From contig NZ_QZXA01000003.1 of the NCBI RefSeq assembly GCF_003601985.1, positions 434,001 to 498,000 of the forward strand: 64,000 nt of DNA, written 5' to 3'. Made by a program: the position numbers and the translations under genes. The notes below the pieces were generated by a model, which was not told the DNA's origin, searched no databases, and was given only the letters and a program-made list of their open reading frames with translations. Position 1 is the first letter of the stretch. Every line of letters starts with the position of its first letter. Shown piece after piece: positions 9,380 to 14,207 of this stretch. This DNA is from Mesorhizobium jarvisii. GTDB lineage: Bacteria; Pseudomonadota; Alphaproteobacteria; Rhizobiales; Rhizobiaceae.

Positions 9380-12300
9380 CTACTTCTTCAGCTGGTCGCG
9401 CAAGGCGGCGAGCTTGGCGAAGGGCGAATCCGGATCGAAGCGCACCGGACGTTCTTCGCGCGGCTTCGGCTGGAAAGCGGGCTTTGCGCCTCCCTTGCCG
9501 CGATCGGGACCGCCCTTGCCCTCGGGCCGGCCACCCTTCCAGTCGGGTCGGCCTTCGCGGCGCTCGGGACGCTCGCCCTGCGGGCGGCCGTCACGGCGCT
9601 GATCGCCTTCACCCTGCGGCTTGGGCTTGAACTTGGAACGGTCGAAGCGCGGCTTGCCGGCGCCATCGCGCCGCCCCTCATGGGTGAGACGTTCTCCGGG
9701 CGCGGCCGTGGCCGGTGCGCCGGCGGCATCGGCGGGCGCATTGTTTCGGCCGCGCGCTTGTCCATTGCGCTGGCGGTTGTTGCGGCCTTCGTGATGGCGG
9801 GGGCGCTGTTCGAAACGGCCCTGGCGCCACAGCAGGATGGGCTTGGGCGCTTCGGCTTCGGCGATGGGCTCGCCGGCGGCCGCTTCGGCCACCACGGCAG
9901 GCTCGTCCGAAACCGCTTCCGTCGCCGGTGCAGCTTCGGAAACTGGCTCCGCCGGCGTCGCCTCGACCGATTCGGCTTCCGCTTCCGGCGCGGCAACAGG
10001 TTCAGCAACCGCTTCGGCGACAGCGACCTCTGTAGCGGGTTCTTCCACGGCTTCGGCTGGAGCTTCCGGTTGCGCTTCCGCGACCGGCTCCGCTGTCGTT
10101 TCCGCGATGACCTCGGCGGGAGTTTCGAGCGCGGTCTCGGCAACAGCCGGTTCCGAACCTTCGACCGCCGCCTCCGCGGCCGCGTCCGTAGCGGCTGCCT
10201 CGGCTGCCTTGGCCTGCTCGGCGCGCGCGGCTTCTTCCGCCGCGAGTTTCGCGGCAGCGGCTTCACGCGCGGCGGTGTCCTGCGCCTCCAGCCGCGCCTT
10301 CACCTCCGCCGCCGGCTTCGGCTCGGCGCGGTAACCGAGGCCCTTGAGAATCTCTTCCATGTCGTCGGCGGTGGCACCAAGGATCGACATCATCGGCGGC
10401 GTCACCATGAAGGAATGGCCGTCATAGGCGCCGTCCGGACGCTGGCCGAGGCCGGGCTTCCAGTTGGTCGCCGGACGGATGAGGTCCGCCAGCCGCTCCA
10501 ATATGTCGATGCGCACGGCGCGGCGGCCGAGATTGCGATAGCCGGCAAGCTTGTAGAAAGCCTTGTCGAAGGCAGGATCGATGACCACGGAGGTACGGCC
10601 GGACGCCAGCGCGTGGACGACGTCGCCGAAACCAGGCTTGTCCTTGCCGTCGTTCTGCAGCGCCCACAGCAAGGTCACCAGCCCGGCGGGGGCCGGCTTG
10701 ATCAAAGCGGGCACGAAGACGTGGTAGGCGCCGAAGCGCACACCAAGGCGGCGCAGGGCCGCGCGACCCTCCTGGTCGAGCGACTTCATCTCCTCGGCGA
10801 TATCGCGGCGGTTGATGAGGCCGAAATTCTCGACCAGCTGGAAGGCAATGCCGCGGCCGATGCCGGAAATCTGGTCGGCGTTCTTCAGGTCGACGAGCGG
10901 CTTCAGCAGCGTTTCGATCTGGAAATTGACGAAGCGTTCGGCGCGCGCGGCGACCTTGTCGCGCGCCGGGCCGGTCAGCTGTTCGTCGGCCAAAAGCACA
11001 AGGCGCGGCTTCAGCGCGTCTTCGCCCGAAACCAGCGTGCCGATCGGCGCGCCGATCCAGCGTAGCGTGCCGTCCGAGCCTAGCGCCAGGTCGCCATTGG
11101 CGCAGGCGCCGAAGCGTTCGGCGCGCGCCTCGAACTCGGCGGCAAGCGCCTTTTGCGCGGCCGTGCGCACGGCCTTGGCGTCTTCGCCGCCGGCGGTCTG
11201 GTCGGCGGTGAAGCGGAACCCTTGCAACTCGCCGACATGGTGGCCTTCGACAAGGACGGTTCCGGTAGGACTGATTTCGGCTTCAGGCATTGTATTTTCT
11301 CTAAGGCGCCGCATGAGGACGGAAGTCCTGCGGTCTACGAAGCGTTTCGTCAACCGCTCATGCAGCGCATCCGACAATCTGTCTTCGATTTCGCGCGTCT
11401 TTTCCTGCCAGTGTGCCTGATCGGCCAGCCAGCCGGGCCGGTTCGACACGAATGTCCAGGTGCGGATTTGGGCAATGCGGTGCGACAGCGTGTCGATGTC
11501 GCCCTCGGTGGTGTCGGCGCGGCGCACCTGCTCGGCCATGTAGTTCTCGTCGACATGGCCATGACGGGCGAGGTCCATGTAGATGGAGGCGATGAGGTCG
11601 GCATGCTGGGCAGGCGCGATCTTCCTGTAGTCGGGCAGCGCGCAGGCTTCCCACAGCAGCGCCACGCGCTTGGCATCGGTGGCGAGCGCGCGGATGTCCT
11701 CGTCGCGGGAGAGATATTCCAGCGCCTGTGCGTCGACCGCCGGCAGGGCGCGCGTCAGGCCCTCGACCGGCGCGTTGGTCTCGATCGAGCGCTTCAGCGC
11801 ATCGAGACTGGCGAAGTCGAAATGCGCGGTGCGCCACTGCAGCACCTTCACCGGATCGAAGTCGTGGCCCTCGATCTTCTTGACGAGGTCTTCGTCGAGC
11901 GGGTCGACCTGAGCGGTGACGCCGAACGTGCCGTCGCGCAGATGCCGGCCGGCGCGGCCGGCAATCTGGCCGAGTTCGGCCGCCGTCAGATTACGGTACT
12001 GGTAGCCGTCGAATTTGCGGTTCTGGGCGAAGGCGACATGGTCGAGATCGAGGTTGAGACCCATGCCGATGGCGTCGGTGGCGACGAGATAGTCGACATC
12101 ACCCGACTGGAACAGCGCCACCTGGGCGTTGCGGGTGCGCGGCGAAAGCGCGCCGAGCACGACGGCGGCACCGCCCTGCTGGCGGCGGATCAGCTCGGCG
12201 ATGGCATAGACCTCGTCGGCGGAAAAGGCGACGATCGCGGTGCGGCGCGGCAGGCGAGTCAGTTTCTTCGAACCGGCATAGGCCAGGTGCGACAGCCTTG

Positions 12301-12769
12301 GCCGCGTCACCACCGAGACGCCCTTCAGCAGGCGCTGCAGGATGCCATGCATGGTGGCGGCACCAAGCAGCAGCGTTTCCTGGCGGCCGCGCAGATGCAG
12401 GATACGGTCGGTGAAGATGTGGCCGCGCTCGAGGTCGCCGGCGAGCTGCACCTCGTCGATGGCGACGAAGGCGGCGTCGGTCTCGCGCGGCATGGCCTCG
12501 ACGGTGCAGACCGAATATTTGGCGCCTGGCGGCTGGATCTTCTCCTCGCCGGTGATCAGCGCGACCTTGTGGGCGCCGACCTTTTCGCAGACGCGCGCAT
12601 AGACTTCCCGGGCCAGCAGCCTGAGCGGCAGGCCGATGACGCCGGTTTCGTGCGCCACCATCCGCTCGATGGCGAGATGGGTCTTGCCGGTGTTGGTTGG
12701 GCCAAGCACGGCGGTCACGTCGCGGCCCGACAAGATCAGCGGCTCAGTGTGTTTCGGCTGGATGTTCAT
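9380..12769 (-). CDS. SUV3-like DEAD/H-box-related RNA helicase with long disordered tail
   Basis: Predicted ATP-dependent RNA helicase related to mitochondrial SUV3. Chosen start is the ATG at 12769, giving 1129 residues; an upstream ATG (12901) would add 44 residues that look non-conserved, and AGG precedes the chosen codon. Walker A GPTNTGKTHL is at 23-32, the Walker B-type box reads AIDEVQLAG, and the second RecA domain has QIAGRAGRH. After the helicase core, about 850-1010 is an Ala/Glu/Pro/Val-rich acidic stretch, and the end is a basic Arg/Gly/Lys segment (RQGRFEQRPRHHEGRNNRQR and repeats of EGRPDWKGGRPEGKGG type) likely to bind RNA. Probably works in RNA decay, by analogy only. Confidence 0.85.
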   Translation of the reverse strand: MNIQPKHTEPLILSGRDVTAVLGPTNTGKTHLAIERMVAHETGVIGLPLRLLAREVYARVCEKVGAHKVALITGEEKIQPPGAKYSVCTVEAMPRETDAAFVAIDEVQLAGDLERGHIFTDRILHLRGRQETLLLGAATMHGILQRLLKGVSVVTRPRLSHLAYAGSKKLTRLPRRTAIVAFSADEVYAIAELIRRQQGGAAVVLGALSPRTRNAQVALFQSGDVDYLVATDAIGMGLNLDLDHVAFAQNRKFDGYQYRNLTAAELGQIAGRAGRHLRDGTFGVTAQVDPLDEDLVKKIEGHDFDPVKVLQWRTAHFDFASLDALKRSIETNAPVEGLTRALPAVDAQALEYLSRDEDIRALATDAKRVALLWEACALPDYRKIAPAQHADLIASIYMDLARHGHVDENYMAEQVRRADTTEGDIDTLSHRIAQIRTWTFVSNRPGWLADQAHWQEKTREIEDRLSDALHERLTKRFVDRRTSVLMRRLRENTMPEAEISPTGTVLVEGHHVGELQGFRFTADQTAGGEDAKAVRTAAQKALAAEFEARAERFGACANGDLALGSDGTLRWIGAPIGTLVSGEDALKPRLVLLADEQLTGPARDKVAARAERFVNFQIETLLKPLVDLKNADQISGIGRGIAFQLVENFGLINRRDIAEEMKSLDQEGRAALRRLGVRFGAYHVFVPALIKPAPAGLVTLLWALQNDGKDKPGFGDVVHALASGRTSVVIDPAFDKAFYKLAGYRNLGRRAVRIDILERLADLIRPATNWKPGLGQRPDGAYDGHSFMVTPPMMSILGATADDMEEILKGLGYRAEPKPAAEVKARLEAQDTAAREAAAAKLAAEEAARAEQAKAAEAAATDAAAEAAVEGSEPAVAETALETPAEVIAETTAEPVAEAQPEAPAEAVEEPATEVAVAEAVAEPVAAPEAEAESVEATPAEPVSEAAPATEAVSDEPAVVAEAAAGEPIAEAEAPKPILLWRQGRFEQRPRHHEGRNNRQRNGQARGRNNAPADAAGAPATAAPGERLTHEGRRDGAGKPRFDRSKFKPKPQGEGDQRRDGRPQGERPERREGRPDWKGGRPEGKGGPDRGKGGAKPAFQPKPREERPVRFDPDSPFAKLAALRDQLKK

Positions 12770-13481
12770 CGACCTGGAAATAAGGCTTTCTGGCCTCTGG
12801 TTGTCGGGAGCGTGCCTCAACTGGCGCGTATGACAGGCGACACATAGGGATTTCGGGCGCGAAGCGAAAGCGGAATGTTCCACCGGCAGCTTCGAAAGCA
12901 ACTCTGTCTGGCGCTAAATTGGCTGCTGCTTAACTGATGGAACGAGTCTGGAACGAATCAGCTACGAATCGGCGACTCGCTCAGATTCAGCTTTTGTTCA
13001 CGGCTACATATGGATTTTGTGATGCTGAGTCTCACCACATGCTGAATCGTCGAACTGGCCCGTTTTATGCTGGGTGAGCCTTGTCCTTAACCTTTGCCGG
13101 CAAATGAACGGAGCAGGTCGGGGGCTATCGCTCAAGATTATGAAATTGTTAATCTTTCTGAATTTGCCGTTAAGGAAAAACAGCTGATTCCGGGGCATTA
13201 ACGTTAACTTCCGCTCAAAGCCGGAACGAATCGGCGACAAATCAGCGCCAACGGGATTTTCCCGTTTTGTTCCCTCAATATCTTGTGTTGCGAACAGTTT
13301 ATCCACCGAGGATTCACAGGCTTGTCCACAGGGTTCGCACAGACGGCGCTGTCGCCATTAACCTTTGCGTGCCGGATTGGGGCATCGCGCCGTGGCGGGG
13401 TATTTTTCCGGCCTCCAAGGCGTCAGGGGAAACGGACCGGTTCCCCGGTCCGTTCGTCACAATCCGAAGCCGTTGGACGTC
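12770..13481. other. Gene-free region with dense GANTC, TTAA and DnaA-box-like sites
   Basis: About 710 bases separate the helicase start from the end of phaB. From 12944 to 13315 I count ten GANTC sites: at 12944, 12955, 12966, 12974, 12984, 13027, 13044, 13186, 13228 and 13311. Sequences close to the DnaA box TTATCCACA lie at 13299-13307 (TTATCCACC) and 13322-13330 (TTGTCCACA). TTAA motifs include the palindrome TTAACGTTAA (13198-13207) and two copies of TTAACCTTTGC (13087 and 13358). The stretch 13130-13210 is AT-rich for this genome, and AACGGGA-TTT-TCCCGTT (13250-13266) forms a hairpin. The one open frame inside (13004-13306, minus) looks like chance. Confidence 0.6.
13431..13454 (-). 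terminator. Likely terminator of phaB
   Basis: AACGGACCGG (13431-13440) pairs perfectly with CCGGTCCGTT (13445-13454) across a four-base loop, 27 bases beyond the phaB stop. On the transcribed strand the stem ends GTTT before C residues, so the T-run is short. Position and a 10-bp GC stem support a terminator. Confidence 0.6.
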
Positions 13482-14207
13482 TCAGACGAAGTACTGGCCG
13501 CCATTGGCAGTGATGGTCGAGCCGGTGATGAAGCCGGCATCCTGCGAAGCGAGGAAGACGACGCAGCGCGCGATCTCTTCCGGCTCGCCGAGGCGGCCGA
13601 CCGGGATCTGCGGCAGGATGCGCTCGTTGAGCACCTTCTCGTCGATGGCCTTGACCATTTCGGTGGCGATGTAGCCGGGGCAGATGACGTTGACGGTGAT
13701 GCCCGCGCGGGCGCCCTCCTGGGCGAGCGCCTTCGAGAAACCGATGTCGCCGGCCTTGGCGGCGGAATAATTGACCTGGCCGGCCTGGCCCTTCTGGCCG
13801 TTGATCGAGGAGATGGTGATGACGCGGCCGAACTTGCGATCGCGCATGCCGTTCCACAGCGGATGCGTCATGTTGAAGACACCGGACAGATTGGTGTCGA
13901 TGACTTCTTTCCACTGGTCGCGGGTGATCTTGTGGAACATGGCATCGCGGGTGATGCCGGCATTGTTGACCAGCACCGAGACCGGGCCGAGGTCGGCCTC
14001 GACCTGTTTGATGCCGGCGGCGCAAGCGTCATAGTCGGCGACCGACCATTTGTAGACCGGGATGCCGGTCTCGGCCTTGAACTTCGCCGCCGCTTCGTCG
14101 TTGCCGGCGTAGTTCGCGGCAACCGAATAGCCGGCGGTCTTCAAGGCGATCGAGATCGCCGCGCCGATGCCGCGCGATCCGCCCGTGACGATTGCTACCT
14201 TGGTCAT
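13482..14207 (-). CDS. phaB: Acetoacetyl-CoA reductase PhaB
   Basis: NADPH-dependent reduction of acetoacetyl-CoA to (R)-3-hydroxybutyryl-CoA, the second step of polyhydroxybutyrate synthesis. The 241-residue short-chain dehydrogenase has the nucleotide motif TGGSRGIG at 8-15, NNAG near 85, the catalytic YSAAK, and the PhaB-type end ANGGQYFV. It follows phaA on the same strand with a 90-base gap, the usual phaAB order in rhizobia. Confidence 0.95.
   Translation of the reverse strand: MTKVAIVTGGSRGIGAAISIALKTAGYSVAANYAGNDEAAAKFKAETGIPVYKWSVADYDACAAGIKQVEADLGPVSVLVNNAGITRDAMFHKITRDQWKEVIDTNLSGVFNMTHPLWNGMRDRKFGRVITISSINGQKGQAGQVNYSAAKAGDIGFSKALAQEGARAGITVNVICPGYIATEMVKAIDEKVLNERILPQIPVGRLGEPEEIARCVVFLASQDAGFITGSTITANGGQYFV

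Follow-up and report, generated by a model that had tools for sequence, protein, structure and literature searches.

The question raised by this locus is what a gene-free gap crowded with GANTC sites might encode or control. The gap lies at 12770-13481 of a 64,000-nucleotide stretch of Mesorhizobium jarvisii DNA (the whole stretch is hereafter called the window), and is bounded by the start of a Suv3-like helicase gene (12769) and the end of phbB (13482). The original prediction read its GANTC sites, DnaA-box-like sequences and TTAAC motifs as the mark of either a replication origin or a cell-cycle control region. Comparison with other genomes points to two tandem copies of a conserved alphaproteobacterial small non-coding RNA gene, related to CCNA_R0116 of Caulobacter, a reading that we consider probable, if well short of certain. 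It is favoured because of the conservation of the region across part of the class, its copy number, its position, and its coincidence with a published Caulobacter transcription start site (TSS).

A conserved core in two copies

The gap holds a conserved core at 12937-13018 and a weaker second copy at 13216-13289. Its sequence was matched in 36 of 36 congeners, and of the 249 genomes searched from the order, 59 were matched by a 396-bp query taken from the gap. These represent about 20 families, seven belong to the window's own genus, and in three (G083, G117, G184) the match falls outside the core. Between families, the core aligns nearly gap-free. Alignment A1 comprises 26 of 30 order loci, while A2 and A3 comprise 43 and 41 of 60 order and class loci. 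With profile R1, the core was detected in 45 of 385 genomes of the class, and with the broader profile R2 in 52 of 385, 40 of which reached E 1e-6 or better, our own cut for a strong core. A draw of 398 genomes of the phylum yielded 55 matches, 49 in the class and six outside it, the latter marginal (E 0.003-0.009 only). Twenty-two named genomes, hand-picked from 80 CcrM loci, were also searched; the strong carriers are Caulobacter vibrioides DSM 9893, three more Caulobacter, two Phenylobacterium, Brevundimonas aveniformis, an Asticcacaulis, and Parvibaculum sedimenti.

Both window copies match this class-wide core. Copy 1, which is part of the training alignment, scores 78.8 bits with R1; copy 2 scores 26.8 bits with R1 (E 1.7e-7, 13221-13287) and 34.9 bits with R2 (13216-13289). 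Two copies were present in all nine own-genus genomes of the phylum draw, the window's genome included, and two or three matches at E 0.01 in 29 of 49 class genomes, some of the extra matches being weak.

Other copy arrangements were also observed. Three copies lie within about 1.1 kb or less in G061 (L051), G886, and G897 (own family), with a spacing of roughly 205 bp in G061 and G886. In family f35, nine genomes (G071, G146, G176, G204, G227, G248, G960, G984, G1001) have two core matches each, far apart or on separate contigs (both on one contig in four of the nine), and a tenth, G268, has one.

The Caulobacter counterpart and the predicted RNA genes

The core of C. vibrioides DSM 9893 (G661:C6:101636-101714) scores 53.5 bits with R2; this strain is not among the 43 R2 training rows, which may include its relatives. 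The papers cited here by PMC number are represented by excerpts. In PMC5988900, CCNA_R0116 is a non-coding RNA with its TSS at 757263, on the minus strand. The carD gene (CC_0653/CCNA_00690; PMC3751524) lies at 747704-748207c in strain NA1000 (PMC3951458), and its two annotated lengths, 504 and 558, were both reproduced. Measured from the start of carD, TSS 757263 is located one nucleotide inside the GGGAAC that forms the conserved edge of the core, 10 nucleotides (nt) beyond TACAAT. The strands agree as well, R0116 running opposite to the plus-strand consensus, a direction that in the window leads towards the helicase.

The level of R0116 rises from 11.1 at 0 min to 793.3 at 60 min, in S phase, and the same excerpt assigns to it three CcrM sites, one CtrA half-site, no full CtrA site, no DnaA box, and one GcrA peak in chromatin immunoprecipitation (ChIP), in an analysis that the paper itself terms predictions (PMC5988900). 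It is through this counterpart, with its S-phase transcription unit, CcrM sites, and GcrA ChIP peak, that the cell-cycle half of the original prediction gains support, which the origin half does not. The window region resembles R0116 in core sequence, predicted start position, strand relative to the core, the three GANTC sites, and the CtrA half-site, but the C. vibrioides genome searched has a single strong copy, separated from the helicase by two genes, whereas the window has two tandem copies adjoining it and ten GANTC sites. Among open-licence papers, CCNA_R0116 was found in PMC5988900 only, in passages that do not describe an R0116 family or its spread.

A second published observation may concern the same place. 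CCNA_00697, the top published GcrA ChIP target, has three GANTC sites (PMC3667746), and by the numbering of carD and of one of two ogt genes (CC0659) it should sit at or beside the core. The Caulobacter gene next to the core (L213 7101-7598), perhaps CCNA_00697, would contain three GANTC sites within its initial 150 nt, provided that 7101 is its start. The CCNA_00697 peak may belong either to the core or to this neighbouring gene, and is not used as proof.

When the Caulobacter start is carried over, the predicted RNAs of the window start near 13001 and 13273, both on the minus strand, and the two copies take the following form.

12930-13001, minus strand: copy 1, predicted 5' part of a small RNA with its TSS at about 13001, directed towards the helicase (class-wide core and Caulobacter start carried over)
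13002-13041, minus strand: predicted promoter of copy 1 (base frequencies upstream of the aligned start, 54 loci)
13216-13289, plus strand (that of the profile match): copy 2 of the core, whose RNA would be on the minus strand, with its TSS at about 13273
13274-13313, minus strand: predicted promoter of copy 2, with CACAAGATATTG just upstream of the start and a DnaA-box-like 9-mer further up

Across 54 loci, in a table that excludes eleven near-duplicates, the sequence before the aligned start favours CnAnAT at -12 to -7 and, around -36, a T/G-rich box. Copy 1 accordingly has a CnAnAT-like -10 at about 13007-13012 and a T/G-rich box near -36, with the GANTC at 13027 placed at about -29. On the plus strand, the most widely kept letters are GAAC, nAA, CGAATC with R and often CTGAC behind it, TT.GTTC, and then an A/T-rich box. 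In all 65 aligned copies GAAC falls among the first nucleotides of the predicted RNA, and in 63 of them YGATTCG (minus strand) is found at +21 to +45; these tables are without Asticcacaulis copy 1, which has no GTTC anchor, and their L074 duplicates L044. Of the ten GANTC sites, five fall inside the predicted RNA of copy 1, at +14, +24, +32, +43, and +54. The first 75 nt of the predicted RNA contain 1-6 GANTC sites, mostly 4-5, in the 30 order loci, and 1-5, mostly 1-3, in 29 class loci: GANTC richness is a trait of the order.

The near-fixed YGATTCG, about 30 nt downstream of the predicted start, has the form of the GcrA-activated CcrM sites of Caulobacter, given as YGAKTCG or YGAKTCK; the Brevundimonas subvibrioides study found no such extended motif (both PMC7987155). 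The RAMA domain of CcrM was detected in 39 of 40 strong-core genomes versus 236 of 345 others (p 2.3e-5, kinship ignored), an association that fits control of the core by CcrM and GcrA; most CcrM-bearing genomes showed no core.

Each copy would thus consist of a conserved -10-like box followed by an RNA with GAAC close to its 5' end and, in most copies, YGAUUCG about 30 nt into the RNA, the same letters forming, as DNA, the CcrM/GcrA-type site YGATTCG. Both copies are presumably transcribed in M. jarvisii. Methylation of the packed GANTC sites, together with GcrA, may couple their expression to passage of the replication fork, and the RNA could act by base pairing through its conserved segment. 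A bolder proposal, to which we give only tentative credence and which may well be wrong, is that an ancient S-phase small RNA is a shared CcrM/GcrA target across Alphaproteobacteria, its gene body serving as a methylation sensor, so that the RNA would be made in step with replication of the locus and feed back on cell-cycle or envelope genes. GcrA/CcrM targets are reportedly rewired between closely related bacteria (PMC7987155), and a non-coding gene with a near-invariant CcrM-type site kept over many families would be a rare shared target. The region offers a concrete locus for probing the purpose of the methylation circuit, and the overlooked Caulobacter RNA would become one of a family, with a 5' segment that is likely to be functional and with natural variants in two and three copies.

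By description, two known RNAs can be likened to the predicted ones. EcpR1 of Sinorhizobium meliloti, encoded downstream of divK-pleD, is a rhizobial small RNA that acts on the cell cycle, and the other is CcnA of Caulobacter, which we take to be CCNA_R0094. CcnA, an RNA from the origin region, is a cell-cycle-regulated non-coding RNA tied to the CtrA/GcrA network (PMC8959179); CCNA_R0094 appears in PMC4287350.

Points against two RNA genes, and the rival explanations

Several observations weigh against two RNA genes. Neither a consensus RNA structure nor covariation above shuffles was found, and a scan of the gap for a plain sigma-70-type promoter and a terminator found nothing. Transfer of the TSS presumes that the two Caulobacter strains differ by no net insertion across 9 kb. 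The near-invariant GcrA-type site sits on the downstream side of the predicted start, and GANTC occurs at -40 to -1 in 22 of 65 copies only. If CCNA_00697 is the same place, its reporter speaks against methylation control: activity dropped by only 31% when GcrA was depleted, and mutation of the GANTC sites left it at its full level (PMC3667746). One strong-core genome, G480, has no RAMA match; 333 of the 385 genomes of the class draw have no R2 match, and the 22 named genomes divide into nine with a strong core, five with a weak one, and eight with none. Lastly, the counts of conserved letters rest on loci chosen by similarity.

As to the fold, RNAalifold proposed seven pairs for the plus strand, with no covariation, and no pairs for the minus strand, pair counts for a structure drawn by hand did not exceed those of shuffles, and single-sequence folding of 75 nt gave a mean z of -1.23 in sense and -1.11 in antisense, that is, no strand preference. 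No conserved secondary structure is described for R0116 in the excerpts seen, and a missing fold is not disqualifying. Since no common fold is detectable, the conserved part would be either an unpaired stretch used for base pairing or, at the DNA level, a site bound by protein. Rfam 15 had no match in the window at the gathering score; on the gap, with E up to 10, it gave one sub-threshold match, Yar_1 (E 0.4).

Protein coding was considered and rejected, no consistent frame being found in the 13 listed loci. A leaderless GUG frame was likewise discarded: it meets a stop after 3-4 codons in 17 of the 44 copies beginning with GTG.

Because no common RNA fold was found, the main rival is a DNA-only chromosomal element, in which a packed CcrM/GcrA site (with CtrA/DnaA) titrates or positions regulators, or senses methylation, any transcript being incidental. 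We regard it as unlikely, while taking it more seriously than any other rival. Its components in the window would be the following.

12944-13315, no strand: ten GANTC (CcrM-type) sites, starting at 12944, 12955, 12966, 12974, 12984, 13027, 13044, 13186, 13228, and 13311
13299-13307, plus strand: DnaA-box-like TTATCCACC; similar boxes occur near the core in 14 of 59 loci
13322-13330, plus strand: DnaA-box-like TTGTCCACA

The ten GANTC sites, the two DnaA-box-like 9-mers and several TTAAC motifs in the gap are thus as originally described. The accompanying expectation of one or two GANTC per 372 bases was generous: GANTC is rare here, with 67 in the window versus 310 predicted per 64 kb by shuffles, and contig C32 has 858 in 705,299 bp, or 1.2 per kb. 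At the contig rate, the Poisson probability of at least ten sites in 376 bp is 7e-11, for one given stretch. The densest 372-bp stretches on this contig, to which the scan was applied out of a 6.6-Mb genome, hold ten sites here, seven just upstream of hemE, and four or fewer elsewhere. Conservation of the sites in the genus, proposed as a check, was found: the GANTC spacing 11-11-8-10-43-17 is complete in 22 of 30 fetched genus loci, the window's own included.

In favour of a DNA-only element, besides the missing fold and covariation, the middle base of the first four GANTC sites, where these are present, is invariant in the 30 order loci, and the Caulobacter counterpart has a GcrA ChIP peak (PMC5988900). 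DnaA-box-like 9-mers beside the core number 17 versus 2.2 expected, yet they occur in 14 of 59 loci only, some of them close relatives. A DNA-only element, however, leaves unexplained why the Caulobacter start coincides with the conserved edge and is preceded by a -10-like box, and in 14 of 29 class loci the first 75 nt keep a single GANTC, with the other core letters retained. The distance of the core from hemE also varies, outside the genus, from 0.005 to 0.48 of the replicon (13 copies in 12 genomes; G080, G120, G230, G248, and G661 of 17 genomes are not included, and the lower-scoring, nearer of two hemE genes was taken in G009). The datA and DARS loci of Escherichia coli are non-origin loci with DnaA boxes, and bear on this rival. 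Unlike them, the core is at no fixed distance from the origin, and it has DnaA boxes beside it in few of the loci.

The next rival, which we judge improbable, is that the region is the promoter and 5' leader of a Suv3-like helicase operon. The neighbouring genes are:

9380-12769, minus strand: Suv3-like helicase gene, the usual neighbour (Pfam DEXQc_Suv3, E 1.2e-26)
13482-14207, minus strand: acetoacetyl-CoA reductase gene, phbB (TIGR01829, E 8e-110)

In all 30 order loci, and in 27 of 29 class loci (the window's own not counted), the helicase adjoins the core on the expected side and is read the same way as the predicted RNA. Where reading frames were listed (13 loci), the start of the longest helicase frame ranges from 351 bp before the core to 22 bp inside it. 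In Caulobacter, on the other hand, the helicase is about 2.9 kb from the core, behind ogt-like and amidohydrolase-like genes, the nearer of which faces the RNA, and stand-alone copies with no helicase in the fetched 5.1-9.0 kb were seen, namely the second copies of Brevundimonas, Asticcacaulis, and G071 and the single copies of G334 and G480. Core copies thus occur in tandem or singly, apart from the helicase; these copies and the intervening Caulobacter genes argue that the core is a unit of its own. A regulated helicase promoter, one option of the original prediction, would account for the region in part at best: it keeps in its favour that the predicted RNA runs the helicase's way and that the core usually adjoins that gene, and has against it the two intervening genes and the five copies without a helicase. 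As for phbB, it was in the fetched flank of 8 of 30 order loci, of which seven belong to the window's genus and the eighth to a different genus in the same family, and as a neighbour is confined to that family among the loci seen.

A LexA (SOS) operator is very improbable. It would rest on one feature:

12940-12954, plus strand: GAAC-N7-GAAC, a LexA-box form, kept in 30 of 30 order loci and often altered outside the order

The Caulobacter LexA motif is GTTCN7GTTC (PMC12700426), but the first half-site is altered in many loci outside the order where the rest of the core is kept, and the repeat may merely mirror the 11-bp spacing.

The weakest rival, a chromosomal replication origin sited here, is close to impossible and was rejected on GC skew and the position of hemE: a comparable GANTC and DnaA-box cluster exists on the contig only at the hemE side, but that oriC-like region is 443 kb away, no lasting skew switch occurs at 447 kb, and the place of the core varies from genome to genome. 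hemE lies at C32:3887 and is immediately preceded by DnaA boxes and a GANTC cluster, and pairs of DnaA boxes (TTATCCACA, at most one mismatch) within 500 bp occur at two places on C32 only, here and on the hemE side. Of 36 20-kb bins, 28 have positive guanine-cytosine (GC) skew, on both sides of the region, despite dips to -0.011 and -0.012 in the two bins just before it (400-440 kb); six other negative bins lie elsewhere. All 11 congeners tested on one contig have hemE 420-829 kb away. Of 13 genomes searched, one contained the strict parS pattern; the window's genome was without it, and no link to parS was gained.

Minor observations

The oriC-like region upstream of hemE (L223 3440-3880, G000:C32) contains TGTGGATAA, TTGTCCACA, and seven GANTC sites, and is the contig's second densest cluster.

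In L214 and L217, reading frames of a kind common over tRNA genes lie near the core; these tRNA-like frames, like the names ogt and amidohydrolase, were assigned by eye or taken from the literature.

Four loci of one family (L052, L057, L058, L061) have runs of GANTC at 21-bp spacing beyond the core, and in L057, L058, and L061 the sequence between these sites is not repeated.
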